The notes beneath the pieces were generated by a model that saw only the letters and a program-made list of their open reading frames with translations, had not been told where the DNA came from and ran no database searches. The position numbers and the translations under genes are program-made. DNA of 52,906 nucleotides from positions 1 to 52,906 of the forward strand of contig JAHDWA010000065.1 in NCBI GenBank assembly GCA_023382535.1, read 5' to 3'. Each line of letters starts with the position of its first letter. Within the stretch, counting starts at the first letter, position 1. Shown here piece by piece: positions 2,831 through 31,700 of the stretch. Source of the DNA: Anaerolineae bacterium. GTDB lineage: Bacteria > Chloroflexota > Anaerolineae > 4572-78 > J111.

Positions 2831-2949
2831 AGAAAAGGAACTCGACGATTTACGATTTTTGGTATTGGATTTGTACCGCAAGGGTATCCTTTAGGACGAT
2901 TTAATTCCTATGAGTTCCTATGAGTTCCCTTCTTGCCACAGGAGTTTCT

Positions 2950-8258: not shown

Positions 8259-9176
8259 ATGGCTTGCCTAGCCAGGCAAGATCGTATGTCTGACATCCTG
8301 CCAATTCTATCACGTTTAGATTTAATTAGCATCATTGACATTCTGTTGGTGGCTTTGATTTTTTACTGGATCTTGGTGTTGATCCAGGGAACTCAAGCCG
8401 TCCAACTGTTGAGGGGTGTTTTAATCCTGTCAGTGCTGGCGGCGATCATGGCCAGCGCTTTTACCCGCTTGATTGCTTTTAGCTGGCTTATCGGCAAAGT
8501 TTTGCCGGCTTTGCTGGTCGCTATCCCCATTATTTTTCAACCCGAATTGAGGCGCGCTCTCGATCGTGTGGGCCGCACAAAAATATTCGCTTCACCTGGC
8601 CCCAATACTCAAATTGAAAAAGCAATAGCTGCTGTTAGCGAAGCGGTTATCCCGATGTCGCAGATGAAGCGGGGGGCACTGGTTGTATTTGAGCGCAGCA
8701 CGGGCCTGGAAGCCTACATTGAAACAGGGGTAAGGCTACAGGCACTGGTTAGTCCGGATTTGTTGCTAACTATTTTTACCCCAACAACTCCGTTGCATGA
8801 TGGGGCCGTGATTATTCGGGATGACCGGGTTGTAGCGGCTACGGTGGTTTTGCCTTTAGTTGAGGAGAGCCTGCTGGAGGGACAGCAAGGCTTAGGGACT
8901 CGCCACCGGGCTGCGCTGGGCATCAGCCAGCTTACCGACGCTATTGCCGTGGTTGTTTCCGAGGAGAGCGGGACGATTTCTGTGGCTCATGATGGTCACT
9001 TAATTCGCGGCCTGGATAAAAAGCGGCTAGAACAACTTTTGATCGCCTTTTATCGAACCCAATTGGGCGTCAGCCCATCCGGCTGGGGGCAGACAAGCCA
9101 TGCCCTCCTCAGACGTTTGGGCTTGGCCAGGCCGGCCAAATCTATCCCCCAGACCCGTTCTCAATCCAAGCACTGA
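8259..9176 (+). CDS. cdaA: Diadenylate cyclase CdaA (c-di-AMP synthase)
   Basis: Membrane-bound enzyme that makes cyclic di-AMP from two ATP. As drawn it has 305 residues. About three N-terminal membrane helices (residues ~22-42, 47-68 and 72-92) precede the DisA_N (DAC) domain. The catalytic DGA motif is at 181-183 and GTRHRAA at 213-219. The start is uncertain: the ATG at 8259 lies 13 nt after GGAGGAGAA, while the ATG at 8286 gives the N-terminus more typical of the family but has no clear ribosome-binding site. The cdaR gene follows 12 bp later, the usual pairing. c-di-AMP controls potassium and osmolyte transport and wall homeostasis in other bacteria. Confidence 0.93.
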   Translation: MACLARQDRMSDILPILSRLDLISIIDILLVALIFYWILVLIQGTQAVQLLRGVLILSVLAAIMASAFTRLIAFSWLIGKVLPALLVAIPIIFQPELRRALDRVGRTKIFASPGPNTQIEKAIAAVSEAVIPMSQMKRGALVVFERSTGLEAYIETGVRLQALVSPDLLLTIFTPTTPLHDGAVIIRDDRVVAATVVLPLVEESLLEGQQGLGTRHRAALGISQLTDAIAVVVSEESGTISVAHDGHLIRGLDKKRLEQLLIAFYRTQLGVSPSGWGQTSHALLRRLGLARPAKSIPQTRSQSKH

Positions 9177-13681: not shown

Positions 13682-14437
13682 TTACCTGTTATCGGCGGGG
13701 TTGGCCTGGCAGCATGGATAGCCGGTGTAGGGGTGGCAGTGGGGCGCGACGTCGGGTAGTGAAAAACCTAACTCCTGAAAAGCTGCGGCTAACTCACCGA
13801 GAGGTAAACCCATCACGCTGGCAAAACAGCCTTCCAAACGTTGCACCGGGGCAAAAGCCTGGTTCTGGATGCCGTAGGCCCCGGCTTTATCGAGCGGGTC
13901 GCCGCTGGCGACGTAGGCAGCAATCTCGGCGTCGGTATAGGGACGCATCCAGACGGTGCTCCGGTGCAAGCGGGTCACAAACCTGCTGGTTCGATCAGCG
14001 GAGAGCAGGGCCACGGTCAAGCCGCTGTAGACGTGATGGCTCTGCCGGCGTAACTGCTTGAGCATAACAGCGGCTTCAGCCGGGCTGCCCGGTTTGCCTA
14101 GAATCCGGCGGCCTGACGCGACTTCCGTATCGGCAGCAATAATGATAAGCTGGCCTTTAGTCTTATCCAGATGGTTCGCCAGGGACGGGGCCAGCCAATC
14201 CAGGTGGATAGCTACGGTTTCGGCTTTAAGGCGGCTCAACCGCTGTACCAGGGCGGCGGGAGTTTCGCCGGGGAAGGGGGTTTCATCTACGCCGGTATGG
14301 CCCGGTGTTGTAGTGGAAGGAAGGGCCGGCGTGACGACCTGAAAAGATACCCCCAGGCTCTTTAACAGTTCCTGGCGGCGGGGTGAGCCTGAAGCAAGGA
14401 TGATCGGTTGTGAGGAGAAGGCGGGAGAAGTTGTCAC
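13682..14437 (-). CDS. maf: Maf-family nucleoside triphosphate pyrophosphatase
   Basis: Protein of 251 residues. The family hydrolyses non-canonical or modified NTPs, such as dTTP/UTP or m7GTP, to monophosphates. SGSPRR is at 16-21, AADTEV at 101-106 and GKP at 114-116, and a DKAGAYGIQ segment follows. It is longer than the usual ~190-200 residues because of two insertions, at about 40-57 and 79-95. The GTG start overlaps the stop of the upstream receiver-kinase gene in GTGA, so translation is coupled to the signalling operon, an odd place for a housekeeping gene. Which Maf subfamily it belongs to cannot be decided here. Confidence 0.92.
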   Translation of the reverse strand: MTTSPAFSSQPIILASGSPRRQELLKSLGVSFQVVTPALPSTTTPGHTGVDETPFPGETPAALVQRLSRLKAETVAIHLDWLAPSLANHLDKTKGQLIIIAADTEVASGRRILGKPGSPAEAAVMLKQLRRQSHHVYSGLTVALLSADRTSRFVTRLHRSTVWMRPYTDAEIAAYVASGDPLDKAGAYGIQNQAFAPVQRLEGCFASVMGLPLGELAAAFQELGFSLPDVAPHCHPYTGYPCCQANPADNR

Positions 14438-15753
14438 ATCGTCTGCTGGGGTGGGGATTTTAAGGGCAAGAAAACGTAGAATTTGCTGCCGGGGTAGGTT
14501 GCAAGATTGCGCCCCTCGCTCTCCACCCAGACTCGCCCCTCATGCGCAGCGATGATCCCCCGTGTGATAGGTAACCCCAACCCGATGCCGCCCCCCCCAA
14601 AGGCAGTTTTGCTGGAGCTATGATATGAGGTATCGCCGACAACATAAAATTGTTTAAAGATTTCTTTTTGCTCCAGGCGATCAATCCCCATCCCAGAGTC
14701 CTTCACCAAGATGATGATTCCCTCTTCGTCAGCAACGCAGGATGAAGCGGGCAGTTCGGCATCGGCGGGCGCGGAGCTATTGAGCCAGCCTTTAACCCAG
14801 ATAAAGCCCTCATCCGGTGTATATTTTATGGCATTGCTCAAAATATTCCAAAAAGCCTGGCGTAACCGTTCTTTATCACCCATAAAGTCAGGCAAAGTAT
14901 CCAGGCTATCTACAGCAATGTTAAGCCGGCGACCATTTTTGGCCGGGTTTAACTCTTGCAGGGCCGTGTTGATGACTTCAGCCAGATTGACCACTTCTGT
15001 CTGCAAACGCATTTCGTTAGCTTCGATGAGCGAAATGTTGAGAATATCGTTCACCACCTCGTTCAGGCGCTGGACGGAGCGGTAAATTCTACCCGCCAAA
15101 TCCGATACGCCGCCCTCAACAAGCTCGGTCTGACCTGTTTCCTGAGCAACCATTTGCAGGAGGCGGGCGTAGCCGTAAACCAGGGTCAGGGGCGTTCGGA
15201 GTTCATGCGCCGCTACCGTGATAAAGTCCGACTTGACCTTGTCTATTTTCTGCAGGCGGCTGTTCGCCTCTTCCAGTTCAAGCACCTTGGCTTCCAGCCG
15301 CTCCACCAGTTTATGGCTGTAGTGGCCCAGATATAACTGGCGCTCATCACCGGAAATGGTATCTCGGCGGCCTTTAAGATAGGAAATGATTCTGTGCGGA
15401 AAATCATCTATATCAATGGGTTTGGTAATGTACCCATCGCAGCCAGCCGCCAGGGCCAGTTCGCGTTCACCCCGGGCGGCGCGGGCGGTGAGGGCAATGA
15501 TTGGGATGCGCTCCAGCGCCGGGATCGTGCGCATCCGAGTGGTTGTTTCATGACCGTCGAGGCCGGGCATGTTAATGTCCATGAGAATCAGGCTGGGTGG
15601 ATCGTTGCGGGCAATGGTTAATCCTTCCAGACCCGTGGCCGCCTCGATGACCTCAAAATTATAACCGCTAAGCACTCTTTTGACCAGTGTTCTGTTGAGC
15701 GAGTCATCATCAATATATAGTATTTTGGGATTGGTCAGTGGAGTTTCAGGCAA
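14434..15753 (-). CDS. Receiver-histidine kinase (REC-coiled coil-HisKA-HATPase)
   Basis: Protein of 439 residues starting at TTG with GGAGAAG 5 nt upstream. The N-terminal receiver (about 10-128) has the acidic pocket DDD at 15-17, phospho-acceptor D59 and K111. A coiled coil at about 145-172 leads to HisKA with the H-box AAHELRTP (H183). The HATPase has an N-box with NILSNAIKYTPDEG, DSGMGID and GGGIGLGLPI. There is no membrane segment or sensor domain, so its input is probably phosphorylation of its own receiver by a partner kinase. It is downstream of the PLP enzyme-receiver fusion and is translationally coupled to maf. Confidence 0.93.
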   Translation of the reverse strand: MPETPLTNPKILYIDDDSLNRTLVKRVLSGYNFEVIEAATGLEGLTIARNDPPSLILMDINMPGLDGHETTTRMRTIPALERIPIIALTARAARGERELALAAGCDGYITKPIDIDDFPHRIISYLKGRRDTISGDERQLYLGHYSHKLVERLEAKVLELEEANSRLQKIDKVKSDFITVAAHELRTPLTLVYGYARLLQMVAQETGQTELVEGGVSDLAGRIYRSVQRLNEVVNDILNISLIEANEMRLQTEVVNLAEVINTALQELNPAKNGRRLNIAVDSLDTLPDFMGDKERLRQAFWNILSNAIKYTPDEGFIWVKGWLNSSAPADAELPASSCVADEEGIIILVKDSGMGIDRLEQKEIFKQFYVVGDTSYHSSSKTAFGGGGIGLGLPITRGIIAAHEGRVWVESEGRNLATYPGSKFYVFLPLKSPPQQTM

Positions 15754-15819: not shown

Positions 15820-17520
15820 TTACTTAAGCACATCACGAATACTTTCAAATAACTCCTCCTCCATAAATTCGCCCTTCTGGAGGAGAGATTCCACCCGCCC
15901 GGAGAGTCGTTTGTAATCCTTGTTGGTCAGGTCTTTAGCCGTAATGACAATGACCGGAATGTCTCGCAGTTCTACATCGGCTTTCATCATGTCAAGAATG
16001 GTAAAGCCGTCTATCCCTGGCAGCATCAAGTCCAACAGGACCAGGTCGGGCTTTTCGGTGCGGATAAGGTTGATGCCGCTGTTACCGTCAGCCGCTTCAA
16101 ATATATTGTATTTGCGGGTGTACTGTAAAATACGGCGCAGCAAGACGCGGGCATCCAGTTCATCCTCGATAATAACGATACTTTGAACACGGTCATCCAG
16201 CCGCCGCAGCGCGGTCAGGAGTCCTTCCTGGGGTAGCGTTTCACTGGTTCGTTGGCGAGGCTCAGCTTTGTTATCCTCTTCGACCACCTCTTTTTCAAGA
16301 TTCTGGACCCGAATGTGACTCCTGACGATTTCATTTTCCAGAATTTGCTTTTCTACGGGGAAGGTGTGACCGGAGGCGTTGATCACCACCGTCTCGTTAG
16401 GACTAATCAACTGCTCCTGCACCATTTTGATCAATCCGGCGCAAGCCACGGCGGCTGCCGGTTCCATAGATAGGCCCTCCATCTGGGCCATCACTCGCAT
16501 GGCTCTAAAAGAGGCCTGATCGTCCACTTTGACAAAGGCGCCGCCGTAAGTCAATACCAGATTGCGCAGGTAGGGGTAAGCTGGGCCGGGATTGCCCGTG
16601 GCCAGAACATTGATAATACTGGCGGGATTTTGGACAATTTCACAGCTTTCCAGCCCTTTCTGGAAACTGTTGACCATAGGAGCGCAGCCTTCAGTCTGGA
16701 TGATGGCCAATTTGGGGATTTTTTTGATGAGACCCATGCGGTACAGCTCATAAAAGCCTTGCCACACCCCAATCGGCCCCATTCCGCCGCTGACTGCCTG
16801 GATGTACCAATCCGGCGCAGCCCAGCCGACCCCACGAATCCGGCCTATTTGCTCGGCAATCTCAAAAGCCAGCGTTTTCATCGCCTCCCGGGCCGAAATT
16901 CCTTTAACCCCTTTATCCAGAAACAGATTGCGGTACTTGGCAAATTGAGCCGCCACCTGTTTGGTGCGATCGTAGTTGCTGGATACCTTAATGACTTCGG
17001 TGCCGTAAAGCGTCACCTCACGCATTTTTTCGTGAGGAACATTGCTGTCTAAAAAGGCCCACAATTTGATCCCGGAGCGGGCACAGTAGGCAGAGTAGGA
17101 GATAGCCACGTTTCCGGTGGAGGCGACAACCAACTCCTTAATATCGGCTTCTTTCAATACGGAAATAGCCAGCGAGGCTTGTCTATCCTTAAAAGATGCC
17201 GTTGGCCCTTGCCGCTCATCTTTAATAAAGATATTGCGCCGCCCCAACATTGCCCCCAAATTTTCGGCCCGAAGTAAAGGGGTCCCGCCTTCGCCCATCG
17301 AGACAATGTGCTTCTTGTCCAGGATGGGCAGCAGCTCCCAGTAGCGCCACATCGTGCGGTCACGTTGAGGCAGTTCGTGCCGCCAGATGTAAGCTGTTTC
17401 ATTAAGGTTGTAGATTAGCTCAAGCCATTCTCCGCCACACTCGGGGCAAATTCCCACTAGCTTTGTGTACTCATCGGTGTAGCCGCAAGAAGTACATTTA
17501 TAGGAGAAAGATTTGGTCAC
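15820..17520 (-). CDS. Threonine-synthase-like PLP enzyme fused to a response-regulator receiver
   Basis: Protein of 566 residues starting at GTG. Residues 9-28 form a zinc ribbon (C9, C12, C25, C28). Residues about 60-400 are a fold-type II PLP enzyme of the threonine synthase family, with GEGGTPLL at 76-83, SFKDRQ with Schiff-base lysine K111, and STGN at 134-137. A linker of about 50 residues rich in E, Q and R leads to a complete receiver (about 446-566) with the acidic pair ED, phospho-acceptor D497 in LLDLMLPGIDG, and TAKDL. The receiver lacks the usual KP and instead ends in LLQKGEF, like the last receiver of the adjacent 2011-residue kinase. Threonine synthases are normally 350-500 residues without a receiver. 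The enzyme may make threonine or a related amino acid (cysteate synthase is an alternative), with phosphorylation as a possible switch. Confidence 0.9.
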   Translation of the reverse strand: MTKSFSYKCTSCGYTDEYTKLVGICPECGGEWLELIYNLNETAYIWRHELPQRDRTMWRYWELLPILDKKHIVSMGEGGTPLLRAENLGAMLGRRNIFIKDERQGPTASFKDRQASLAISVLKEADIKELVVASTGNVAISYSAYCARSGIKLWAFLDSNVPHEKMREVTLYGTEVIKVSSNYDRTKQVAAQFAKYRNLFLDKGVKGISAREAMKTLAFEIAEQIGRIRGVGWAAPDWYIQAVSGGMGPIGVWQGFYELYRMGLIKKIPKLAIIQTEGCAPMVNSFQKGLESCEIVQNPASIINVLATGNPGPAYPYLRNLVLTYGGAFVKVDDQASFRAMRVMAQMEGLSMEPAAAVACAGLIKMVQEQLISPNETVVINASGHTFPVEKQILENEIVRSHIRVQNLEKEVVEEDNKAEPRQRTSETLPQEGLLTALRRLDDRVQSIVIIEDELDARVLLRRILQYTRKYNIFEAADGNSGINLIRTEKPDLVLLDLMLPGIDGFTILDMMKADVELRDIPVIVITAKDLTNKDYKRLSGRVESLLQKGEFMEEELFESIRDVLK

Positions 17521-17550: not shown

Positions 17551-20500
17551 TTAGACAGTCGCTTCATGAATACGTTTTAAAGCCTGACTGACATCTTCTA
17601 ATAATTCATTTTCGGTAAAAATGCCTTTCCGCAGAAGCACTTCGACCTGCCCGGTGAGAGTCACATGTTCTACTGGGCTGAGTTCTTTGGCGCTGACAAT
17701 AATAATCGGGATGCCCCGTGTTTTCTCATTATGCTTAAGCGCCTCGACAACCCTAAAACCGTCCATTTCGGGCATGGTTAGATCAAGGATGATAAGGTCA
17801 GGTTCGACGCGTTGGACCAGTTCCAGGCTCTCGCGGCCATTGTTCGCGGCAAAGATTTTGTAGTTGGGTTGGGCCTCAAGGATACGGCGGATCAGCAAAA
17901 TATCATCGGCCTGATCGTCAACAACTAAAACCTTGACCTGCTCTTTAGATTGGGTCTCCAGGTGTTTAAGGGCTTTGACGAGTTCATTCTCGACAATGGG
18001 TTTTACCAGGTAGTCGGCAGCGCCCAGAGAGAAGCCCCGGTTTTTATCACTGACAATACTACAGATGATAACGGGAATATTCTTGGTCGCAGGGTCATCT
18101 TTGAGCGTTCTCAAAACCCCCCAGCCATCTGTTTCGGGCATCAACACATCGAGCAGAATCGCGGCTGGAGCCAGCTCTTTTATCTGCGGCAAGACATCGT
18201 GGCTGTGATTGATGCCAACCACTTTATAATCTTGTTGTTCCAGGAAGCGCTCATAAAGGGTAATCACACCCGGATCATCGTCTATAGCGACAATTAATTT
18301 TCCATTCCCATCTTTCCGGGCTTCGGCGGCCAGGATAATTGGCCCCTCGACCTCTTGTTGTTCAACCGGTTTGATTGGAATGAAAAAGTTAAAGGTAGAA
18401 CCGTAGCCAAGTTTGCTTTCGACCCAGATTTGACCCTGGTGCATCTCAACAAAGTGGCGGCTAATGGGCAAGCCCAGGCCGGTGCCGCCCACTTTGCGGG
18501 TTGTGCTGGAGTCAACCTGGGTGAACTCTTCGAAGATACTGGTCAAATTCTCTTCGGGGATACCAATACCCGTGTCGCTGACGGTAATTGTAACTTTTTC
18601 CTGATCGGCGTGGGCCGAGATTGTCACCCGCCCTTCATCGGTAAATTTACAGGCATTAGACACCAGGTTAAGGATAATTTGCCGGATCCGGGTCGGATCG
18701 GCCCATACCGGGGGTAAGCTTTCGGAAATATCTTGGTGCAGCGTAATTGGCCTGTCTTTAACCAGGGCAATGGCTGTTGACATGACTCCCTTGATGATGG
18801 GTTCAAGTTCAACCTCTTCAAAATTCAGCTCCATCTTGCCGGCCTCAATTTTGGACAGGTCAAGAATGTTATTGATCAGACCCAGGAGATGTTGTCCGCT
18901 ATTGTGAATCGAGGTCAGGTCCGTTTTTTGCAGCTCGGTTAAAGGTCCGTCAATGCCTTTTAAGATTACCCGTGAAAAGCCAATGATAGAATTAAGCGGT
19001 GTGCGTAACTCGTGGCTCATGTTAGCCAAGAACTGCGTCTTGAGTTTGTCAATCTCTTTGAGACGTTCGGCAGTTTGTTGTTGTTCGGCAAAGGCGCGCG
19101 CGTTTTGAATGGCAATCGCCAGTTGAGCGGCCAGAGTTTCCAGTACAGAAATTTCTTCGCTGGGAAAAGCAGTGGGTGAAGTGCTCTGCACGTCCAACGC
19201 GCCAATGAGTGTATCGCCCACCTGGAGCGGAATTGCCAGTTCAGCCCGGGTTTCGGGTAAAAATTCGTTACGGTGGCGGATCGTGCCCGCTTCGATGGCA
19301 TCTGTATCGCGGACGACGATAGGTTGGCGCTGGTAAATTACCTGACCAATCACGCTCTGACTCCCAACAGCTAATTTATGACCCATTGCCAACAGCTTTC
19401 GACCTGCCTCGCCCGTGCTTTTGTAAAGTATAGCAAACTGCTTGGCTTCGTCAATAAGAAATATCTGGACGTGATAAAAGCCAAAGCGTTCCCGAATCAG
19501 TTCGACAGCCTGGCTCAGCATGGTTTCCTGATCGAGGATGGAGGTGGCGACCCGGCCTACATCCGAACTGGTTTGCAATTGCACGGCTCGCCGCTTGGTT
19601 TCTTCCAGGAGCCAGCGGTTTTGAAGCATAATGGAGAGTTGGTCGGCCATGGCGATAGCCAGGTTAATTTCTCGTTCGCTAAAGATATGTTTTTTGCCAA
19701 TTGCATCGGCCCCGAGAGCACCAATCACTTCGTCATTAATGATAATTGGGACCAATAGCAGTGAAGCAATTCCCAGGGGAATATTGATCTCTCTCACAGT
19801 TGCTAATAAAGGATCATGGGCCGCATCTTCTATGGCTACCGGGCGCTTGGTGGCGATAAGCTTCTCATACGATGGATTACCCTCGACAGGAAAGCGCAAA
19901 CCGGGTTCAGCCGGTTCGCCATTAATGAAGAGGGCATGAAGTTTACCAAATTTTCGGTCTTCCTCAAAGAAGAGGACCCCGCCTTGCAGTAACCCCAGGG
20001 TAGTCAGCATTTCTCGCAGGACGGTGTATAACATTTCTTGCTCATCTTCGGTGGCGACCAGGGTACGACCGACCTGATATAAAGCTTCAGCTTCCTGGCG
20101 GGCAGCCTGGGTTTGCTCAAACTGGCGCACTGCTTCGATCGCTTGGGCCGCTTGGCTGGCTACGGCCTCAATAAGCACCAAATCATCTTCATCAACCTTA
20201 TCCTGGGCAGATACTTCAAAATCAATGGCCCCAATCACGGTTTGCCCATGAAGCGTCAAAGGAGCAAGCAGTACCGACGTTTCCTTTTGCTCAGGAGACA
20301 TATCGTTTTTGCCGTTTGGCCCCTGCGCCTCAAAGAGGGCATCGGGCGTGCTGGTCGGAAGCAGAATCGGCTGCTTCATTTCGATAATTCGCTTAATCTC
20401 ATCGTTAGACCAGGCTGCCTCATCCTGGCTGGTCAGGCCCTTTTCGGTGAGGCGATAACGATGTGCCGCTTGCCGTTCGTTGAGGTAAGTATTCCACTGT

Positions 20501-23500
20501 TCGTTTAGGTAATACTCATGGGTTTTGCGTACTTCTTCCAGTGCTTGCTGCGAAGCCTGGTAAGAACGGGCAGCTTCGATAGCGTTCGCTAACTGATCAG
20601 CCAGAGATTGCAGAATGGTGATATCACTCTCGGTAAAGGCGGCCCGTTGGGTGCTTTGTACATCAAGTGCGCCAATGACCCGCCCACGGGCAATCAGGGG
20701 CAGGGCCATTTCCGAGCGAGTATCGGGCAAAAGAGGATTGTCAAAAGAGACGGCATCTTTGCCCGTATCCAGAGCAATTCGTGGTTTGCCTGTTTCTGTG
20801 ACCGCCCCGACTATGCTCTCGCTACCTACTTTGAGTTTGTGTTTATTAGCCAGCATCTGCCGGCCCACTTCCCCGGTGGAGGCGTGGATAACTGCATATT
20901 TCTGGTACTCGTCTACCAGGAAGATAGAAACATGATAAAAACTAAAGCGGTCCCGAATCAATTCCACGGTTTGGGGCAGTAAGGTTTCCAGTTCCAGGGA
21001 ACTGGTGGCCACTTGCGAAACTTCGGCTACCGTTTGGAGCAAGGTGGCCCGGTATTGGGTTTCTTCAAACAAACGCCGATTCTCCAGAGCACCGGAAATT
21101 TGACGGGCAATATCTTCATAGAGACGGATTCTCTCGGCAGGGAAGAGTTCATATTTCTGGTTGCCAATTAAAATAAAACCGCCCACCTCCCGGTTAAGCC
21201 AAATGGGCACGGCTACCAGGGTATTAATCTGCATAATCATCAGCAGTTGGCGCAACAGGTCAGAAAAGCGTTCATCTGCAGTAGCTCTATTTGAAACTAC
21301 GGTTTGCCCTGTTTTCAATAAGGGGTTTAACCCCAATTCCTCGGTGGAGAAACGAGCGCCGGGTGAAATAGGAGGCCACTGCTGCTGGGGATTATCCCAC
21401 AAGGCAACTAATTCCAATTCAACCCCGCCCTCGATTTGATCGTACATAAAAATCCCTGCCCCTCGGTCGGGATTGGTATCGGCGATGGCTTGCAGCGTCA
21501 GGTTGTAAATCGTTTCGGCGGTGTCGGCTACGAGCAAATCTTGACTCAGGTGAGACAATATTTCTGAGTTATAGAGACTCTGCTTGGTAGCTTCATAAAG
21601 ACGCAAATTCTCGATAGCAGTGATGGCCTGGTCGGTCAGGGTTTGATAAATCCGAATTTCCTGCTTGGTATAATGATGGGGCTGGCGGGTGGAAATGGAG
21701 AGAAGCCCTTTGTAGTCGGTCCCCAGAAACATCGGCGCGGAGAAGAGCGTCACTGCCTTTAGTTTCTCCTGCATAAAGCGCCGAAAAGCATCATCCATGC
21801 GCGGGTCTTGGCCCTCTGCCCGGCTCAGGTCTTCCACGATAAGCGGCTCAAAGGGGGGCTGGGTAAAAGCATGGACCAACGAGTAATCGTTGGCCGAGAA
21901 TTTAGAACCAACGGGTAAGAGCTGGTCAGATTCCCGATCCCAAGTGGCCACGATGGTCACGGTTTCAATTGAGCCTGATTCAGACCGGTCCAGCAATGAA
22001 ATACTGACCCGGTCAACATCGTACACCTTTACGCTTTCGACGATTACGGCGAAGATGTCATCGAGGTCGGTGCTTTCGGCCAGAGAGCGGCTGATTTCAT
22101 ACAGCTTTTGCGTTTCAGAGAGAGCAGTCTGGGTTTGCTGGAAAAGTTGAGCGTTTTCAATCGCAACAGCGACTTGCGCAATGATCGCCTCGGCCAATTG
22201 CAGTTCATTCTTGGTGTACTCACGCCGTTGATTATGATGCTTAACTCTTAAAACACCCATGAGCCTGTTGCGGATCATTAGCGGAAAAGTGGTCAATGTA
22301 TGTAATGCGGCTGTCTCTGCCTGCTCTGGGGCCTGATCTGAAGTAGTGCGGGTGAGCAAGAATGGCAGCGCCGGGTCGGCCAGGTGCTCGATTATGGGGG
22401 TTGGTTGTTTCAAGATTTGCCGGAGCGAAGATGAGTCCTCTATAAATTCAACTGATTGTTTACGATCGCTCTTTTCGCCTTTGGATACCACCTGTTCAAA
22501 GTGAGTTCTGGCCTTGTTGATTAACCAGATCGTGGCCGTATCGGCTCGAAGGTAGTTCTTGATATTGTCGGCCAATATCTCATAGATTTGCTGCAGATCA
22601 ATGGTTTCAGAGAGCTGGCGGCTGGCTTCAAAGAGAACAGAGAGTTCTTTCGTTCGCGCCTGGGTTTGCTGCAACAAGCGGGCATTTTCAATGGCTAAAG
22701 CTACCTGGGCACTCACTTCTTCCAGCAGACTGATCTCGTCAGTTAACGGGTTCTCCCCTGCCGAAGTTTCTTCAATCCCAATAACGCCAATCGTTTCCCC
22801 GTAAAGCTTGATGGGAGTTATTAATTCGGTAAGTGTCCCCTCTTGAAGGGTGCTTGTGCCTACTTGTTCTCTCGCCAGAGCTAATTTGTTTGCCGGGGAC
22901 AGCTTTCCTATCTCTGAAATCTTGATCCGGTCGTACTCATAACCCAGCGGGGCCGTGTCACCGGTCATCTCCCACGGCTTGCCTGAGTCGTCATGGTGTT
23001 GCTGGTTATATAAAATTTTCATCCCTTGTAAGTCGTCTTGGAGTTGCTGCACCGTTTGAGAACCGTTAATCGCCGCTGCCAGCAGGTCAGCCAGACTACC
23101 CAGAAATGCTATATCAATCTTGTCAAACCCGTCTAATTTACAGCTCTGCACACGTAGAACACCCAAACAGGCTTGAGCTGATTGTAACGGTACAGCCAAC
23201 TCTGAATTTACGATTGTTTGTGCCTCGCCTTGTTGAGAATTGGATGAGGATGATCCCTGATTAATATCGGGACGATAAATCAATTCCCTCCGCCTGAAAA
23301 CCTGGCTGACAATATTGTCTTCGTCAATGGAAAAAAGATGCGGGGCTTGAGTCCCAAGTTTATCGCCAAATAGCCACAAATCTTTGCCAGAGGGCGATAC
23401 CCGGTAGATTTGGGCTGCCTGATAACCCAACAAATTGGTCAGAGAGTGCAGCGCCAGTTCCAGTACCGGTTCTACTTTTTCATCCGTGTTGACTTGTTGG

Positions 23501-23586
23501 CTAATCTTCTGGATTGTTTCAAGTTGACGAGCGTATTTGGGGGTAAACCCGGTCAATTTAGTCGCCGAAACTTGTGATTTGCTCAT
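17551..23586 (-). CDS. Giant multi-GAF hybrid histidine kinase with two C-terminal receivers
   Basis: Protein of 2011 residues starting at ATG after GAGGAAG. It is cytosolic, with no membrane helices seen. About nine GAF or GAF-like domains come first, starting near residues 30, 190 (shortened), 320, 500, 680, 850, 1030 (shortened), 1175 and 1340. Next come HisKA with SHELRTPLNS (H1525), HATPase (about 1620-1740; NLVSNACKFTDEG and GGTGLGLPIS), receiver 1 with D1813 in LLDVLMPETDG, and receiver 2 with D1935 in ILDLTMPEMDG. Two GAFs, near 850 and 1340, belong to the near-identical GAF type that recurs in the neighbouring proteins. GAF ligands cannot be assigned. The gene is 62 bp after the 1697-residue GAF/PAS gene and 30 bp before the PLP-receiver gene. 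Confidence 0.95.
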   Translation of the reverse strand: MSKSQVSATKLTGFTPKYARQLETIQKISQQVNTDEKVEPVLELALHSLTNLLGYQAAQIYRVSPSGKDLWLFGDKLGTQAPHLFSIDEDNIVSQVFRRRELIYRPDINQGSSSSNSQQGEAQTIVNSELAVPLQSAQACLGVLRVQSCKLDGFDKIDIAFLGSLADLLAAAINGSQTVQQLQDDLQGMKILYNQQHHDDSGKPWEMTGDTAPLGYEYDRIKISEIGKLSPANKLALAREQVGTSTLQEGTLTELITPIKLYGETIGVIGIEETSAGENPLTDEISLLEEVSAQVALAIENARLLQQTQARTKELSVLFEASRQLSETIDLQQIYEILADNIKNYLRADTATIWLINKARTHFEQVVSKGEKSDRKQSVEFIEDSSSLRQILKQPTPIIEHLADPALPFLLTRTTSDQAPEQAETAALHTLTTFPLMIRNRLMGVLRVKHHNQRREYTKNELQLAEAIIAQVAVAIENAQLFQQTQTALSETQKLYEISRSLAESTDLDDIFAVIVESVKVYDVDRVSISLLDRSESGSIETVTIVATWDRESDQLLPVGSKFSANDYSLVHAFTQPPFEPLIVEDLSRAEGQDPRMDDAFRRFMQEKLKAVTLFSAPMFLGTDYKGLLSISTRQPHHYTKQEIRIYQTLTDQAITAIENLRLYEATKQSLYNSEILSHLSQDLLVADTAETIYNLTLQAIADTNPDRGAGIFMYDQIEGGVELELVALWDNPQQQWPPISPGARFSTEELGLNPLLKTGQTVVSNRATADERFSDLLRQLLMIMQINTLVAVPIWLNREVGGFILIGNQKYELFPAERIRLYEDIARQISGALENRRLFEETQYRATLLQTVAEVSQVATSSLELETLLPQTVELIRDRFSFYHVSIFLVDEYQKYAVIHASTGEVGRQMLANKHKLKVGSESIVGAVTETGKPRIALDTGKDAVSFDNPLLPDTRSEMALPLIARGRVIGALDVQSTQRAAFTESDITILQSLADQLANAIEAARSYQASQQALEEVRKTHEYYLNEQWNTYLNERQAAHRYRLTEKGLTSQDEAAWSNDEIKRIIEMKQPILLPTSTPDALFEAQGPNGKNDMSPEQKETSVLLAPLTLHGQTVIGAIDFEVSAQDKVDEDDLVLIEAVASQAAQAIEAVRQFEQTQAARQEAEALYQVGRTLVATEDEQEMLYTVLREMLTTLGLLQGGVLFFEEDRKFGKLHALFINGEPAEPGLRFPVEGNPSYEKLIATKRPVAIEDAAHDPLLATVREINIPLGIASLLLVPIIINDEVIGALGADAIGKKHIFSEREINLAIAMADQLSIMLQNRWLLEETKRRAVQLQTSSDVGRVATSILDQETMLSQAVELIRERFGFYHVQIFLIDEAKQFAILYKSTGEAGRKLLAMGHKLAVGSQSVIGQVIYQRQPIVVRDTDAIEAGTIRHRNEFLPETRAELAIPLQVGDTLIGALDVQSTSPTAFPSEEISVLETLAAQLAIAIQNARAFAEQQQTAERLKEIDKLKTQFLANMSHELRTPLNSIIGFSRVILKGIDGPLTELQKTDLTSIHNSGQHLLGLINNILDLSKIEAGKMELNFEEVELEPIIKGVMSTAIALVKDRPITLHQDISESLPPVWADPTRIRQIILNLVSNACKFTDEGRVTISAHADQEKVTITVSDTGIGIPEENLTSIFEEFTQVDSSTTRKVGGTGLGLPISRHFVEMHQGQIWVESKLGYGSTFNFFIPIKPVEQQEVEGPIILAAEARKDGNGKLIVAIDDDPGVITLYERFLEQQDYKVVGINHSHDVLPQIKELAPAAILLDVLMPETDGWGVLRTLKDDPATKNIPVIICSIVSDKNRGFSLGAADYLVKPIVENELVKALKHLETQSKEQVKVLVVDDQADDILLIRRILEAQPNYKIFAANNGRESLELVQRVEPDLIILDLTMPEMDGFRVVEALKHNEKTRGIPIIIVSAKELSPVEHVTLTGQVEVLLRKGIFTENELLEDVSQALKRIHEATV

Positions 23587-23648: not shown

Positions 23649-26600
23649 TTAATGGGTATCGCCGTTAGCAGGGGCGACTAGATGCACATAAGCGCGTTGG
23701 CTACCCAACGCATCTCCCAGTTCTTTGACCGTTGTTTGGAGGATTGTGTCCACGTTGGTTGAAGCTCTTACTTTGGTGGTAATCTCTTTAATCAGAGCCT
23801 CGCGCCGGGCTGCTTTTTGACTGGCTTCATAACGTCGGGCGTTGTCCAGGGCCAGGGCGGTCTGATCAATAAACGCCCGCAGCAATCTGATCTGAGCCTC
23901 TTCAATGGATTTGTCGGTGCTTTTGTTAAAACCGGCTTCAATCAGGCCGATATTCTCTTGGCGTAGTGTTACCGGCGTAAATATTCTGATCCAGTTGGCA
24001 TGCTGTTCCGCTTCAAAGAGCTCGCGGTCAAAACGGTCATCCCAACCGGTAATAATTTCGGTTTGGCCCGTTCTAATGATATCAGCCATGATATCCTGGC
24101 TATCCAAAGAATGATTGGACCGTTTAATTTGAGACTCCGGCACACCAAACCCGGCCACAGCTTTGACCCGGCCCTGATAGGTATCCACCAGACTAAATTG
24201 AGCATATTCGAAACCCAAAACATCCTCACAGGCTTCAAAGAAAATGCTCATGATTTCCTGAACTTGCAGGGTGCCCGCCAACATTTGGCTGAACTGCTGT
24301 AAAGCCTGGGTGTCTTTCAGGAGGGTTTCAGCTTCATATTGGGCCTGGGTAACACTTTCAAACAAGCGCGCATTTTCGATGGCGTTGGCCAGTTGGTCGG
24401 CCATAGTTTGCAGCAAAGTGATATCTTCAGCCGAGAAAGCGCCGCGCTCGGTGCTTTGTACCGTCAACGCGCCAATCACCTCATCCCGGCTGATCAAGGG
24501 CAGCGCCATTTCCGAATGGGTATCGGGCAAATGCGGGTTATGAAACCGGACCGCTTCTTGGCCCACATCCAGGGCAATGCGAGCCTGGCGGTTTTGAATA
24601 CTCCAGCCGATCATCGACTCGCCGCCGATCTTGAGTTTGTGCTTGTTTTCAAGCTGAATCCGTCCCGCCTCACCGGTACCGGCCCTAAGAACAGCCCACT
24701 CTCTGGCCTCATCCGCCAGGAACAAACCCACATAGTAAAAATCGAACTGGTCCCGGATCAGGTTGACTGAAGTATTGCTCAATTCATTCACGTCCAGAAT
24801 GGAACTGGCAGCGCGAGAAACCTCGGCTGCGGTTTGCAGACGCTCTGAGCGGTATTGAGCTTCGGTGAGCAGTTGGTTGTTATCCAGCCAGATAGCCAAC
24901 TGGTCGGCCAGAACTTTACCAACTTCAATATCCTCGGGCGTAAATCTGTGGCCTTTTTCGGTTGCATCAGCCCCAACAATACCCACCACCTCGCCGCGGG
25001 TGACGATGGGAATGAGCAGCATCGCTTCGACCCGGCCGCGCAGGGTTTGATTGTGCTGGGTCATGGGATGGGTTGACACATTTTCGATGACCAGAGGGAA
25101 GGGGTTTTTTAGTAAATGTTGAGCCACCAAATCTTCTTTAGCCGGGAAAACAAGATGAGGCTCAACAACCTTGTTATCAATGTAAAGCGCTTCCATCATA
25201 TTGTTTTCACCGGCTGGATCGAGTAACATGATCCCACCCCGGTTGAGATTGAGCAAGAGGAGATACTCACCCAGGACCGTTTCAAAAGCAGCCCGCCGGT
25301 TGATCAGCGTGGCCAGAGCTTCGCTAATGTTATAGAGGAGCTGCGTTCTGGCCAAAGCTTTTTCTAAAGCCTCTTCAGCATGTTTGCGTTCAATGGCAAT
25401 CCCGGCTAACTGAACCGCTGTGTCAATCAGCTCCAGATCGGCTGCTGCCGGAGTATGAGGTTCCGCATGGTACATAGCAAAAGTGCCAAGTACCTTGCCA
25501 TCGGTAGCCAGGATAGGAGTGGACCAACAAGCGCGCAGGCCAAAGGTCGAAATAATCCAGTCGGCGTAATCTGCCCACAACGGATCAGTAGCAATATCTG
25601 AAGAGATTACCTGTTCCCCCCGATAGGCTGCCGTGCCACATGAACCAACTTTCGGCCCGATAACAAGGCCATCTATGGCCTGCGTAAAACTTTGAGGCAG
25701 GCTGGGGGCGGCCCCACTACGCAAATGAGTTTCCTGGGCGTCCAGCAGCATAATGGAGGCGTAGAAAGTTTTATCAGACAAACCTTCGATAAATTCGGCC
25801 AAAACGTTAAGTGTAGCCTGTAGTGAGGCTCCTTTGGCAATCATTTCAAAAACTTGCTGCTGGCCGGTTAATAGAGCCTCGGCGTGTTTGCGCTCGGTAA
25901 TGTCCAGGTGGGTTCCGGCCACGCGGAGAGGCTGACCGGCTTCATCCCGCTCCACGATATTGCCGCGATCCAGAATCCATCTCCACTCGCCTGTCTTGGT
26001 TCGCAGGCGATATTCACATTCATAAAACGCTGTTTTACCGGCGAGATGGTCATTCCAGATGACTTGCGCCTGGGGCAGATCATCGGGGTGGGTCCGGCTG
26101 TCCCACCACTCCACACACGGCTCAACTTCATCAAGCAGATAGCCAAGCATGGCGGCTGCCCGCTCATCAACGATGTCCATGCCCGTCTGCACGTTGAAAT
26201 CCCACAAGCCGAGGTCCGCGCCGTGCAAAGCCAGCTCAAGCCGCTGCTCGCTTTCACGCAGCGCCTCCTCGGCTTTCTTGCGTTCGGTGATGTCCCAGAA
26301 GATGCCCTGCGTCCCGACCGCGATGCCGGAGGCGTCAAAAATAGGTGACTTTACCACCCGCACAAATAATTTTTCCCCGTCTTTTGTTTGATGCTCCTCC
26401 ACAGTTTCAAACAGTTGGCCCGTTTCGATGATCCTTTGATCATCCTGTTGATACTTTTGGGCCAATTCGGGGGGGTAAAAATCGAAGTCGGTTTTGCCGA
26501 TCAGCTCCTCCAGAGATAAACCCAGGCTGTCGCAGAAACTCTTGTTGCCAAAGACAAAACGGCCTGTCCGATCCTTGCGCAAGATGTTCTGGGGAATATT

Positions 26601-28742
26601 ATCCACCAACGATTGATAAAGGGCTTCGGAAGTGCGCAGCGCTTCCTCGGCTCGTTTCCGTTCGCCGATCTCCTGCCGGGCCTGTTCGTGTAACTGCGCA
26701 CTTTTGACAGCGTTGGCCAATTGATCGGCCATGGTCTGCAAGACGATAATATCTTCTCGACTGAAAGCGGCTGGCTCGTCGCTCTGAACTGTCAAAGCGC
26801 CGATGGCTTCATTATGATAAATGAGCGGCAAAGCAATTTCAGACCGGGTTAGGGGTAAATCCGGGTTTTGAAAGCGGACAGCTTCCTTGCCGACGTCCAG
26901 GGCAATACGCGGTTGGCGGTGGTAAACACTCCAGCCGATCATCGACTCCCCGCCAATCTTCAAACGGTGCCTTTTTTGCAGTTGAATTTGCCCGGCCTGA
27001 CCGGTGCCGGCTTTTAATACCGCCCATTCTTTGGCTTCATCCACCAAAAAAGCGCCTACGTAATATAGCTCAAAACGGTCACAGATCAAGGCTACGGCTG
27101 AATCAAGCAAGTCTTGCACTTCCAGAACGGAGCTGGCGGCCCGGGCTACCTCGGCTGCGGTCTCCATGCGAGTGGCCCGGTAGGCCGCCTCCTCGATCAA
27201 CTGGCGGTTAATGAGGGCAATATAAACCTGGTCGGCCATGGCCAGCCAGAGGCGCTGTACCTCTTCGGTAAAGATATACGGGCGGGTAAAGTAAACCAGG
27301 ATGGCTCCCAGTTGTTGATTGGCTGCCGCCAAAGGCAAAATGGCTGCCGAACAGGCACCGGTGGGGTGAAAACTGGATCGTTCCGTTTCAGACAGCTTCT
27401 CGGCAGTGGCAATGTCGTCAATAAAAAGCGGCACATTGCTGGTAAGCAGCTTGCTTTGGTCAAATTCCGGCAAATAAAAACGTGTCCCGACCACATAAGA
27501 AGGGGTATTGCGTTTTTGCCAGTTAAATCTCAATTCGGCCCAAATAGGTTCATTATCAACCAGATTAAAGCGAAAGGCCGCAATCTCGCAGGGGTCAGCC
27601 AGGCGAATCTGCTCAAAAATGGCTTCAAAAATTTGCCGTTCGCTCAAGGCGCTGGCGATGGCCCGACTGCCAAAATAGAGGGCTGCCGTTTCGGCCAACA
27701 TCCGCTCCCGTTCAGCCTCTCGTGCCCGCACCTCGGTGACATCATGGGTGATGCCCAGCAGATACTCGGGCTTGCCGGCAGCGTTTGGAATTGGAATGAG
27801 CCGGGTATGACCTATATGTTCCCGGCCATCTCCCCAGATTGTTTTATCTTCAGCTTCGAAGATTTGGTTGGTAGCAAAGATTTCTTTATCGCGCTGGTAA
27901 AATTTTTCGGCCAGGTCCGGGCGTAAAAAGTCGCGATCTGTCCTGCCGAGTAATTCCTGTTGGGGGCGGCCAATCACCTGAGCATTGGCCTGATTCATTT
28001 CCAGTAAAGTGTGGTTCTTATCTTTAATAAAGATGGGATCGGGGATATGCTCGATGACGGTTTTGAGGAAGCGCCGGCTGCTCTCCGCCTGATCAAGTAA
28101 GAGGGCATTTTCGGTTAAGAGCTGGGTGTTTTGAATGGTATTGGCCAGTTGATCGGCCAGAGTTTGAAACAGGGTAATGTCGTCTTGCGAGAAGGCGCCT
28201 GGTTCTGAACTCTGCAAATCCAGCGCCCCAATCACCTGCCCCCGATTGATGAGGGGTAACGTCATTTTGGAGCGGGTATCGGACAAGTAGGGATTTTGAA
28301 AATGCGTGGCGTCCGCGCCTATATCTAAAGCAATCAGTGATTGGCGATGCTGAACAGACCAGCTAACCATTGACTCCTCGCCAATTTTTTGTGGAAACTC
28401 TCGTTGTAACAAGAGTTGTCCTGCTTCGCCGGTGCCAGCCCGCAGCTTGATATACTGGTTTGACTCATCAACCAGATAGATAGCAACATAGTAAAGATCA
28501 AAGTAATCTTGAATCAAATTAATCGCTACCCGGAGCAGATCATCCACATCCAAAATCGAACTGGCTGCATCGGAGATGGCTGCTACTGTTTCCAGCAACA
28601 ATTCTTGGCGCTGAGTATTTTGCGACAGCCCTTCCAATTCGCGCAGGATTTCGGTCCACTGCTCGGTTGTCTGAAGCTGAGGCAGAGTCTGCGCCATTTC
28701 CTTGAGTTTAGTTTGAACGATTTGCAAGGTTTCATTGACCAT
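23649..28742 (-). CDS. GAF/PAS multidomain protein without kinase or output domain (1697 residues)
   Basis: Domain order by pattern: GAF (45-205), PAS (222-340), GAF (355-510), GAF (520-680), PAS (700-820), PAS (835-955), GAF (960-1125), GAF (1130-1290), GAF (1300-1460), GAF (1470-1640), then a helical tail. ITERK and EEAL linkers mark the PAS ends. The tail contains ITTKVRASTNVDTILQTTV and stops shortly after. I find no H-box, N-box, GGDEF, EAL, HTH or phosphatase motif. It is therefore a sensory platform that must act through partners. It overlaps the upstream 1429-residue gene by 11 nt, so the two are probably made together and may pair. GAFs at 520-680 and 1300-1460 belong to the recurrent type. 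Confidence 0.93.
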   Translation of the reverse strand: MVNETLQIVQTKLKEMAQTLPQLQTTEQWTEILRELEGLSQNTQRQELLLETVAAISDAASSILDVDDLLRVAINLIQDYFDLYYVAIYLVDESNQYIKLRAGTGEAGQLLLQREFPQKIGEESMVSWSVQHRQSLIALDIGADATHFQNPYLSDTRSKMTLPLINRGQVIGALDLQSSEPGAFSQDDITLFQTLADQLANTIQNTQLLTENALLLDQAESSRRFLKTVIEHIPDPIFIKDKNHTLLEMNQANAQVIGRPQQELLGRTDRDFLRPDLAEKFYQRDKEIFATNQIFEAEDKTIWGDGREHIGHTRLIPIPNAAGKPEYLLGITHDVTEVRAREAERERMLAETAALYFGSRAIASALSERQIFEAIFEQIRLADPCEIAAFRFNLVDNEPIWAELRFNWQKRNTPSYVVGTRFYLPEFDQSKLLTSNVPLFIDDIATAEKLSETERSSFHPTGACSAAILPLAAANQQLGAILVYFTRPYIFTEEVQRLWLAMADQVYIALINRQLIEEAAYRATRMETAAEVARAASSVLEVQDLLDSAVALICDRFELYYVGAFLVDEAKEWAVLKAGTGQAGQIQLQKRHRLKIGGESMIGWSVYHRQPRIALDVGKEAVRFQNPDLPLTRSEIALPLIYHNEAIGALTVQSDEPAAFSREDIIVLQTMADQLANAVKSAQLHEQARQEIGERKRAEEALRTSEALYQSLVDNIPQNILRKDRTGRFVFGNKSFCDSLGLSLEELIGKTDFDFYPPELAQKYQQDDQRIIETGQLFETVEEHQTKDGEKLFVRVVKSPIFDASGIAVGTQGIFWDITERKKAEEALRESEQRLELALHGADLGLWDFNVQTGMDIVDERAAAMLGYLLDEVEPCVEWWDSRTHPDDLPQAQVIWNDHLAGKTAFYECEYRLRTKTGEWRWILDRGNIVERDEAGQPLRVAGTHLDITERKHAEALLTGQQQVFEMIAKGASLQATLNVLAEFIEGLSDKTFYASIMLLDAQETHLRSGAAPSLPQSFTQAIDGLVIGPKVGSCGTAAYRGEQVISSDIATDPLWADYADWIISTFGLRACWSTPILATDGKVLGTFAMYHAEPHTPAAADLELIDTAVQLAGIAIERKHAEEALEKALARTQLLYNISEALATLINRRAAFETVLGEYLLLLNLNRGGIMLLDPAGENNMMEALYIDNKVVEPHLVFPAKEDLVAQHLLKNPFPLVIENVSTHPMTQHNQTLRGRVEAMLLIPIVTRGEVVGIVGADATEKGHRFTPEDIEVGKVLADQLAIWLDNNQLLTEAQYRSERLQTAAEVSRAASSILDVNELSNTSVNLIRDQFDFYYVGLFLADEAREWAVLRAGTGEAGRIQLENKHKLKIGGESMIGWSIQNRQARIALDVGQEAVRFHNPHLPDTHSEMALPLISRDEVIGALTVQSTERGAFSAEDITLLQTMADQLANAIENARLFESVTQAQYEAETLLKDTQALQQFSQMLAGTLQVQEIMSIFFEACEDVLGFEYAQFSLVDTYQGRVKAVAGFGVPESQIKRSNHSLDSQDIMADIIRTGQTEIITGWDDRFDRELFEAEQHANWIRIFTPVTLRQENIGLIEAGFNKSTDKSIEEAQIRLLRAFIDQTALALDNARRYEASQKAARREALIKEITTKVRASTNVDTILQTTVKELGDALGSQRAYVHLVAPANGDTH
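24360..24900 (-). repeat. Recurrent GAF-encoding block, copy A
   Basis: This block encodes a GAF domain (AEVSRAASSILDV through EDITLLQTMADQLANAIENA) that aligns almost codon for codon with 29520-30060 in the neighbouring gene. By eye the nucleotide identity is high, roughly four bases in five. The similarity extends at protein level into the preceding GAF. It suggests a fairly recent duplication of a two-GAF block. Confidence 0.8.
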
Positions 28743-31700
28743 GATTCTTGCCTTCTCTACTGCTGGCTAAGGCGGGTCTAGGCCCCGAAGTTGGGTTGTG
28801 TTCGGTGGCTGGGCGCTCAGGGGGGTGGATACCGAGAGTAATGCCACCGCGTGGCGAACCCAGAATCTTACTCAATTCCGTCACTGTTGTCTGCAAAATA
28901 TCTTCGACATTCGTCGCGCTTCTGATTTTGCCTGTAATTTCACGGATGATTTCTTCGCGCCGGGCGCGTCGCTGTGATGCGTCTAGTAGTCGCAAATTCT
29001 CCAGGGAAGCAACCATCTGTTGGGCAACTGTAGTGTAAAACTTAACCTGCTGGGGTGTAAAAGTTTTACTTTGGGTTCGATAGGCGACCAATAAGAAACC
29101 CAGCCGGCTTTGATAAGTAGAGAGCGGGAGCGCTACCAGGGATTTAATATTCATCTGGGTTAACTCTCGCCGCAATTGCTCCGTTAAGTAAGGGGCGTCG
29201 CTGTTTGTATCTTCAATAACTAACGCCCCGTGCTGAGGGATTAGGCCTTCAATGACCATGTCGCCGGCATTAAAGCGGGTGCCGTTGGGCAAAGTGGGAT
29301 GTCCGGGAGCAGCCCAAATCACTTTTTGTTCCAGGATTTGTCCGGCTACATTTGGATTTTGGGTATCCAGGTAGGTGTAGACAGAAGCCGAGTCAACCCC
29401 CGATTGAGCAATAGCTTCCATTGCCAGCCGGTAAACGGTTTCTTCATTATGCGCCGAGAGTAGTTCTTGGGTGATGCGGTACAGGTTTTCAGTTTCGGCC
29501 AAAGCTCTTTGAGTTTGTTCAAACAGTCGCGCATTTTGGATCGCATTGGCCAGTTGGTCGGCCATTGTTTGGAGCAAGGTGATATCCTCAGCCGAGAAAG
29601 CGCCCTGCTCGGTGCTTTGCACGGTTACCGCGCCAATCACCTCATCCCGGCTGATAAGGGGCAAGGCCATCTCGGAGTGCGTGTCGGGCAGATACGGATT
29701 TTGAAACCGAACCGCTTCCTGGCCAACATCCAGCGCAATCCGAGCCTGCCGGTTTTCAACACACCAGCCGATCATCGAGCCGCCGCCGATTTTGAGTTTG
29801 TGATTGTTTTCGAGCTGAATGCGCCCGGCTTCTCCTGTACCGGCCCGGAGAACGGCCCACTCCCTGGCCTCATCCACCATGAATAGTCCCACATAGTAGA
29901 AGTCGAATTGGTCACGGATAAGATTGACCGAGGTGTTGATCAATTGTTGTACATCAAGGATCGAACTGGCCGCGCGAGAAACCTCGGCTGCGGTCTGCAA
30001 ACGCTCCGAGCGATACTGGGTTTCAGCGAGGAGCCGGCGGTTTTCCAGCCATATTGCCATTTGATCGGCAATCGCCTCGCCAATTTCGATATTGCTCTGC
30101 GAAAAGATATGTCCTTTTTCAGTTGAGCCAACGGTAATCACTCCGGCTACCGTTTTGCCGAAAACTAACGGTATGGCCAGCATAGCTTCTGTCTCGCGCA
30201 GACTCTCTCGTCTATTTTTGGTCAGCGAATGTTCATGGGTATCGTTAACAATCAATGGGCTGGGATGTTGCTGCAAGTGGTGCAAGATGGTATCTGGTAC
30301 AGCAGGAATAATCAACTGAGGTTCAACTGCCTGTCCATTAACGTACAAAGCCTTAGTCTCGTGGGATTGGCCGGTTTTATCAAGCAGTAAAATAACGCCC
30401 TGATCTAAATTAAGGAGGTCAAGATACTCACCCAGGACAATTTCTGCAACCGCCCGTTGATCGGTCGCCGTAGCCAGGGCGCCGCTGATGCGATAAAGCG
30501 ATTGAGTTCTGGCGAAGGCTTCTTGCAATGCCTCCTCCGCTCGCTTCCGCTCGGTAATGTCGTTGATAATTCCAATGAGATATTCTGGTTTACCGTCAGC
30601 CCCTACCAGGGGAATTTTACGAGTGTAAAGCGTCCGTATATTACCCCTGGCATCAGTAATTGACTCCTCTGTTTCTTGAGTTTCACCGGCTTCGAACAGC
30701 TTGGCGTCTAGCACTCGAGACCGGTCGGCTTCTTCTTTAGGCAGGTAATCATAATCGGTGCGGCCAATAACTTTTTCCTCTGGCAGCCCCAGTAACCCCT
30801 CGGCAAAAGCGCGATTCACCACCACCCATTTATGATCGGTATCTTTAATAAAAATTGGGTCAGGGATCTGGTCAATGATACTCTTCATAAATATCCGGCT
30901 GTCCTGGGCCGTTTGCAGGAGCCGGGCGTTTTCAATGGCGTTGGCCAGTTGATCGGCCATAATCTGCAAGGTATCAATGTCTTCGTCGCTGAAGGCATTC
31001 ACCTCGGTACTCTGCACATCCAGGGCGCCGGTGACGATGCCGCGTGTCAGCAGTGGCAGCGCCATTTCAGAGCGTGTATCAGGCAGAAGCGGGTTCTGGA
31101 AGTGAACCTTATCCTCACCCACGTCGAGGGCAATCCGGGGCTGAGCATTAGCGGTCACATAGCCCACAATCGAGTTGCTGCCAACCTTAAGTTTGTGCGG
31201 CTTTTCGACCATAATTTTACCAACTGCGCCGGTTGAAGCATGGACGACTGCCCACTCGCGGGCTTCATCCAACAAAAAGATAGAAACATGATAAAAACCA
31301 AAGCGGTCTCGAATCAGGTCTACGGTGCTTTTGAAAATCTCCCCCAGGTCAAGCATTCTGGAGACCGATTCGCCTACTTTGGCGACAGTTTTTAAGCGGG
31401 TGGCTCGCCGTTCCGTCTGTTCCAACAGCCGGCGATTTTGAATGGTGATGGCAATCTGATCAGCCATTGCTCGGGCCAGGTCTATTTCCTGTTGGGTAAA
31501 GTTGCGATACTCCTCGACCGAATCAGCGCCAATCCAGCCAATGGTTTCACCCCGGATAATCATGGGAGCTTCCAGCAGCGACTTGGGCATTCCTTGTTTA
31601 TTGAAGCTATAAAACCCTACCAGGCTGGGATCACTTGGCGCATCTACACTGACAAAGGGGCGCCCCGAAAGAAGAACCTGTTGATAGGGAATATTTTCAT

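Follow-up and report, generated by a model that had tools for sequence, protein, structure and literature searches.

A kinase-linked fusion of a fold-type II PLP enzyme and a receiver domain forms a conserved family in Chloroflexota

Results

A receiver-bearing PLP enzyme between two histidine kinases

The window, by which we mean the whole stretch of 52,906 nucleotides that was analysed, contains a gene which in the window's frame list appears as a single open frame of 566 residues without interruption, and which specifies a zinc ribbon, a fold-type II PLP domain, a linker and a receiver domain (Table 1). The original prediction that a zinc ribbon, a PLP enzyme and a complete receiver are fused in one protein was borne out by Pfam matches to both PALP and Response_reg, and by the presence of K111 and D497 in all 64 sequences that were aligned. 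In the same alignment C9, C12, C25, C28, N137, D453 and K549 were likewise invariant and residue 527 was T in 63 sequences and S in one, and the response-regulator residues E/D452, D453, D497, T/S527 and K549 were found in 64/64. The four cysteines of the ribbon are predicted from the sequence to bind metal. The fold-type II PLP domain, Schiff-base lysine and STGN loop expected of a threonine synthase are all present in the window protein, and its PLP domain has been kept better than its receiver among the fusions, the median identity to the window being 0.59 for the former versus 0.53 for the latter. The fold comparison bears on the PLP domain, matches to which filled its list, and hardly probed the receiver.

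The fusion gene starts 30 bases after the gene for the 2011-residue hybrid kinase and ends 66 bases before that for the 439-residue REC-kinase, and thus lies between a giant hybrid kinase and a receiver-kinase as had been proposed at the outset. The 1697-residue GAF/PAS protein is the probable sensor of the cassette, while the Maf-like gene is probably not part of the mechanism. Elsewhere in the window, positions 23649-33021 encode two giant GAF/PAS proteins (1697 and 1429 residues) in which Pfam recognizes no kinase or other output domain, positions 8259-9173 encode a 305-residue protein, likely a diadenylate cyclase, whose nucleotide-binding domain is of the DisA type (DAC), and three long frames (481-2193, 2920-4590 and 40481-41575) gave zero Pfam matches at E 1e-5.

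Table 1. Coordinates of the fusion gene, its encoded parts, its neighbours in the window, and the two-receiver proteins of relatives.
Feature	Position	Strand	Remarks
PALP-REC fusion gene	15820..17520	minus	566 aa; GTG start 17520, stop 15820
Zinc-ribbon cysteines C9, C12, C25, C28 (residues 9-28)	17437..17496	minus	Identical in 64/64 sequences
Fold-type II PLP domain (residues 73-384), lysine K111	16369..17304	minus	Pfam PALP E 2.5e-62; fold matches
Linker (residues 385-445)	16186..16368	minus	Weak prediction at 388-430; conserved E432/G433 close to its end
Receiver domain (residues 448-561), phospho-acceptor D497, K549	15838..16179	minus	Pfam Response_reg E 1.7e-18
2011-aa GAF hybrid histidine kinase (GAF-HisKA-HATPase, two receivers)	17551..23586	minus	Upstream partner; Pfam; relatives arranged alike
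439-aa REC-histidine kinase (REC-HisKA-HATPase)	14434..15753	minus	Downstream partner; Pfam; relatives
1697-aa GAF/PAS protein, no Pfam kinase domain	23649..28742	minus	GAF/PAS gene upstream in many loci
Maf-like gene	13682..14437	minus	Overlaps REC-kinase end; conserved neighbour; Maf after REC-kinase in 8 loci
PALP with two receivers, own kinase cassette	L125:9816-11984, L126:9990-12149, L127:9690-11834, L128:9065-11191		

The fusion is an old family of Chloroflexota

The receiver and linker, used as a protein query, returned 1566 matches, the best 120 of which contain both domains, and a scan of species genomes returned 433 relatives, the best 80 of which were inspected and proved to consist of PALP plus one receiver in 80/80 cases (one fusion, L059, is truncated inside the receiver by the end of its contig). 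Neither a stop between the domains nor an absence of the fusion from all relatives was therefore encountered, and an assembly or frameshift artefact is ruled out by the occurrence of both domains in one frame at all of these 80 loci. Both domains were also present in 118 of the 120 matches listed for a search with the PLP region of the window protein, and in 120/120 among those listed for a search with the Herpetosiphon protein. As regards the two listed proteins for which Pfam reported no receiver, P0138 looks like a frameshift, as a receiver begins and is followed by unrelated sequence, and P0140, which ends straight after the PLP domain, may represent a true receiver loss or a cut gene. Open frames of 1157 and 1784 residues that surround two fusions do not, on the evidence at these loci, represent larger proteins, as the upstream kinase occupies another frame of the same stretch.

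The titles of the best 80 of 433 relatives all refer to Chloroflexota or to groups placed therein, and the closest loci, L001 and L002, show 98% and 94% identity to the window in their best segments. Of 121 sampled genomes of the phylum, 20 gave 25 matches of at least 582 bits, every match spanning both domains, and the next score below, 232 bits, belonged to a receiver-free enzyme. The family was found in two Chloroflexota classes: at E 1e-100, a match was obtained in 46 of 150 sampled genomes of the class that includes Bellilinea (a few of the 46 being partial at contig ends) and in 6 of 101 sampled genomes of the class of genome G049, the fusion protein of which is identical to a Herpetosiphon giganteus record. 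The fusion is present in H. giganteus, Bellilinea caldifistulae and Thermanaerothrix daxensis, and a search of plasmid records for the window protein was negative at E 1e-60.

For a tree of PLP domains, 12 rows (11 repeat fetches and one fragment) were removed, the 80 fusions and the window were thinned to 34, and the second copies at L169-L175, described below, were left out. In the resulting 101 rows the 59 receiver-bearing domains were split from the 42 receiver-free domains by a branch of length 1.76 with an SH-aLRT of 100, this being the sole support measure of a quick tree search. The fusion is thus an old and stable family of Chloroflexota with a single origin on the tree.

The original prediction had also held that the fusion may have arisen by local duplication of a receiver of the adjacent kinase. 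The receiver of the window fusion shares 39% identity with the last receiver in the neighbouring giant kinase, versus 79% with the receiver of the L004 fusion. In a tree of receivers (123 rows after thinning, few columns and many weakly supported forks) the 44 first-type fusion receivers form a group with a support of 84, which is joined by 11 second-type fusion receivers with a support of 89, leaving one long-branch receiver, that of L143, outside. The two trees and the identities argue for an old fusion and leave the recent local duplication unsupported, and that part of the prediction was abandoned. The last receivers of the giant kinases are nearest to the fusion receivers (support 87), which is compatible with a remote common origin of the two.

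Fusion loci are linked to histidine kinases

The domain pair and its neighbouring kinases were looked for in other Chloroflexota, and it was established that a histidine kinase is encoded on the same strand within two genes of the fusion in 71 of the best 80 of 433 loci, flanking it on both sides in 19 loci and lying only upstream in 31 and only downstream in 21; among these 80, genes abut or overlap at 18 loci. Seven of the nine loci without such a kinase are of the Thermoflexus type and retain the receiver (L039, L040, L043, L044, L045, L051 and L056, with L045 counted here by the likeness of its end), and the other two are situated at contig edges (L037 and L059). In a control restricted to flanks of approximately 1.5 kb, 21 of 22 distinct fusion loci had a kinase (24/25 in the raw count, three being repeat fetches) versus 1 of 39 receiver-free PALP loci, a set that leaves out five receiver-free genes adjoining second-type fusions; at a looser threshold, a second control locus, L110, shows a kinase frame.

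The gene order in close relatives is a GAF/PAS gene, a giant GAF kinase with receiver, the fusion, a REC-kinase and Maf. The wiring varies by lineage, with two flanking kinases as in the window, the upstream hybrid only in the Bellilinea type, and the REC-kinase only in others, which fits the notion that either kinase may serve the same receiver. In Bellilinea and Thermanaerothrix an EamA-family transporter gene follows the fusion in place of the REC-kinase, and at 14 of the 77 loci with a visible downstream gene, among the best 80 of 433, the next gene on the same strand is an EamA gene. At 7 further loci an EamA-family transporter gene comes after the REC-kinase, likewise on the same strand; the transporter genes of both placements are those of L054-L080 and other loci. 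At L064 (5002-5808) a gene for a ParA/MinD-like ATPase, identified in a Pfam run confined to that locus, separates the GAF/PAS gene from that of the giant kinase, and genes similar in size and place occur at L054, L061 and L065.

A second cassette with one or two receivers

Behind a GAF kinase, four relatives additionally encode a PALP-REC-REC protein of 708-722 residues (Table 1), which in three of the four is followed by a lone receiver. The set examined for this second type comprises 17 loci (L125-L128 and L163-L175) with one or two receivers on the fusion, and is laid out as kinase, PLP-receiver(-receiver) and lone receiver. The kinase is directly upstream in 16/17 (the exception being L165) and the lone receiver is next in 16/17 (the exception being L128), forming the end of a longer frame in L169. 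A receiver-free PALP gene adjoins the fusion in five of the 17 loci (L164, L169, L170, L171 and L173); the four that were scanned scored 566-580 bits against PRK08197, for which the cut-off is 303, while the fifth was typed by pocket positions only. The co-occurrence of a PRK08197-type gene, the fusion and a lone receiver hints at a two-enzyme unit. The two genes upstream at L126 encode NMT1-type binding proteins, and the kinase in Herpetosiphon possesses dCache_1 and HAMP domains, dCache domains reportedly including an amino-acid sensor family (PMC10104139). A Hydrolase match at L163 fell below its cut-off.

The PLP domain departs from canonical threonine synthase

The window protein scored below the cut-offs of both threonine synthase models, with 149.5 bits against TIGR00260 (cut-off 167.1) and 248.8 bits against PRK08197 (cut-off 303). 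Receiver-free genes above the TIGR00260 (thrC) cut-off are present in 15/15 relatives' genomes searched, and 13 of the 15 fusions from these genomes fall below it, those of G007 and G014 exceeding it with 177.6 and 175.2 bits. The fusion is therefore probably, as far as sequence comparison can indicate, not the house-keeping threonine synthase of the cell.

The PLP domains were aligned to the Thermus enzyme (1uim) and compared at positions 61, 84, 85, 87, 88, 154, 155, 160, 164, 188, 191 and 317. At these twelve pocket and PLP positions canonical ThrC proteins read KSTNTNSRQNNT in 13/13 cases, like Thermus, and the window fusion reads KSTNVKGAMGGS. Five canonical pocket positions, T88, N154, S155, R160 and N188, which we take to be substrate contacts in the Thermus enzyme, were kept in 13/13 canonical ThrC proteins and replaced in 59/59 fusions. 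All of these fusions carry G at 155, 188 and 191 and M at 164, with V or A at 88; N was never seen at 154, nor R at 160, and the residues at 61, 84, 85 and 87 do not change. These positions mark the fusion PLP domain as a distinct subfamily; they do not name or settle its substrate, as other receiver-free 'threonine synthase' subfamilies likewise deviate from the canonical pocket, at one or more positions in 29/29 rows (at just one in L095).

No canonical-pocket ThrC was found among the rows examined for the Thermoflexus genome G007, the best match of which, L094, has another pocket, so that in this genome the fusion could still serve threonine synthesis. A thrB gene (TIGR00191) above the cut-off was detected in 8 of the 15 genomes; none was matched in G001-G005, though ThrC-type genes are present there, possibly owing to another type of homoserine kinase, and the thrB result is neutral with regard to the main reading.

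Discussion

The fusion is real and conserved, and it is genetically tied to histidine kinases, which makes direct control of a PLP enzyme by phosphorylation the leading reading. We consider it reasonably probable that the protein is a response regulator with a PLP enzyme as its output, switched by the kinase of its cassette. The cassette histidine kinase would phosphorylate D497 of the C-terminal receiver, and the phosphorylated receiver, carried on a flexible linker, may then raise or lower the activity of the PLP domain or alter its subunit contacts, an allosteric effect by which sensory input would be converted into amino-acid chemistry without a transcription step. The PLP domain belongs to a subfamily of its own that has the PLP machinery of threonine synthase but lacks the canonical ThrC pocket, from which it follows that it most likely acts not on O-phosphohomoserine but on a different amino acid or an amino-acid ester. 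The original prediction, that a phosphorelay directly controls a biosynthetic enzyme, thus stands with respect to a conserved, kinase-tied fusion, whereas the threonine-biosynthetic identity of that enzyme is not supported, in view of the curated cut-offs, the pocket of 59/59 fusions and the ThrC-type genes in 15/15 genomes.

Several other explanations were weighed against this response-regulator reading. The protein might be a second, signal-controlled threonine synthase isoenzyme, producing threonine or something closely analogous while the kinase is active, as its top sequence and fold matches are threonine synthases, two of 15 fusions pass the thrC cut-off, a PRK08197-type gene adjoins the fusion in five second-type loci, and EamA-family transporters, a family that includes threonine exporters, are often next. 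We regard such an isoenzyme as doubtful given the scores of the window protein below both cut-offs, the five altered pocket positions and the other ThrC-type genes in every genome searched. The PRK08197-type neighbours would also suit a fusion that acts as a regulatory subunit, joining a receiver-free PLP enzyme and relaying the phosphorylation state to it, but no such neighbour occurs in 12 of the 17 second-type stretches or in the window, and the catalytic residues of the fusion itself are intact, rendering this very improbable.

It is also conceivable, if unlikely, that the PLP domain serves as input and the receiver as output, with ligand or turnover tuning the uptake or drain of phosphate by the receiver, such that the protein would be a metabolic sensor or a phosphate sink. 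A kinase cassette accompanies the fusion always, the Thermoflexus type aside, the adjoining lone receivers and REC-kinases would suit a branched relay, and receivers with sensor-like partners are known (PMC5847659); however, the catalytic lysine and STGN loop are invariant, which goes beyond the needs of binding, and the PLP domain is better conserved than the receiver. That the receiver is an unphosphorylated structural wing, as in the extended AAT-fold decarboxylases, has a precedent in a PLP enzyme with a receiver-derived wing (PMC8503589), yet it is hard to reconcile with the conservation of the acidic pair, Asp, Thr/Ser and Lys in 64/64 sequences and with the kinase linkage of the fusion loci, and we give it hardly any credence.

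The response-regulator reading can be extended to a closed loop, which we put forward as a speculation that is itself quite unlikely to hold in full: kinases would control a PLP enzyme whose small amino-acid-like product would exit via the EamA-type transporter that is often encoded nearby and be sensed by such kinases, so that in Chloroflexota a response regulator would make the messenger. The product-sensing part is suggested by the dCache domain of the Herpetosiphon kinase and by the NMT1-type binding proteins before one second cassette.

DNA, protein partners and cyclic nucleotides are the usual targets of response regulators. With threonine synthase (ThrC; TIGR00260 and PRK08197; 2c2b, 1uim and 2zsj) the fusion shares the fold-type II PLP fold, the SFKDR lysine and the STGN motif, and it differs in its scores under the curated cut-offs, its replaced pocket and its attached receiver. 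It is also distinct from cysteate synthase (CapA2, 9k3c; TIGR03844), against which the window protein scored 118.2 bits with a cut-off of 324.9; we know of no cysteate synthase with a receiver. As in response regulators with enzymatic output, a receiver with a complete phospho-acceptor site is joined to an enzyme, and bacterial receivers attached to standard metabolic enzymes are known, according to PMC5847659. The archaeal outputs named in its section on them (KaiC-like, glycosyltransferase, thioredoxin reductase and PPDK) are of narrow distribution and no fold-type II PLP enzyme is among the outputs named there, whereas the fusion has a C-terminal receiver and its family spans two classes. 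The extended (winged) AAT-fold arginine, ornithine and lysine decarboxylases resemble it in combining a PLP enzyme of amino-acid metabolism with a receiver-derived domain; in the passages of PMC8503589 on them this domain is N-terminal, the enzymes are acid-inducible and no kinase link is described. The fusion falls outside these decarboxylases, as it comprises a PALP domain of fold-type II and carries its receiver at the C-terminus. A literature search of open-licence papers retrieved no paper on a kinase-linked receiver joined to a fold-type II amino-acid enzyme; precomputed Pfam assignments do already pair PALP and receiver domains.

Some databases label these fusions as threonine synthase despite the separate ThrC-type genes in relatives and the differing pocket, which is of consequence for annotation. 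As the family occurs in named organisms, among them Herpetosiphon giganteus, Bellilinea caldifistulae and Thermanaerothrix daxensis, it is amenable to testing. If the response-regulator reading is true, a widespread and old family with a PLP output of the amino-acid type would represent a direct wire from sensing to metabolism.
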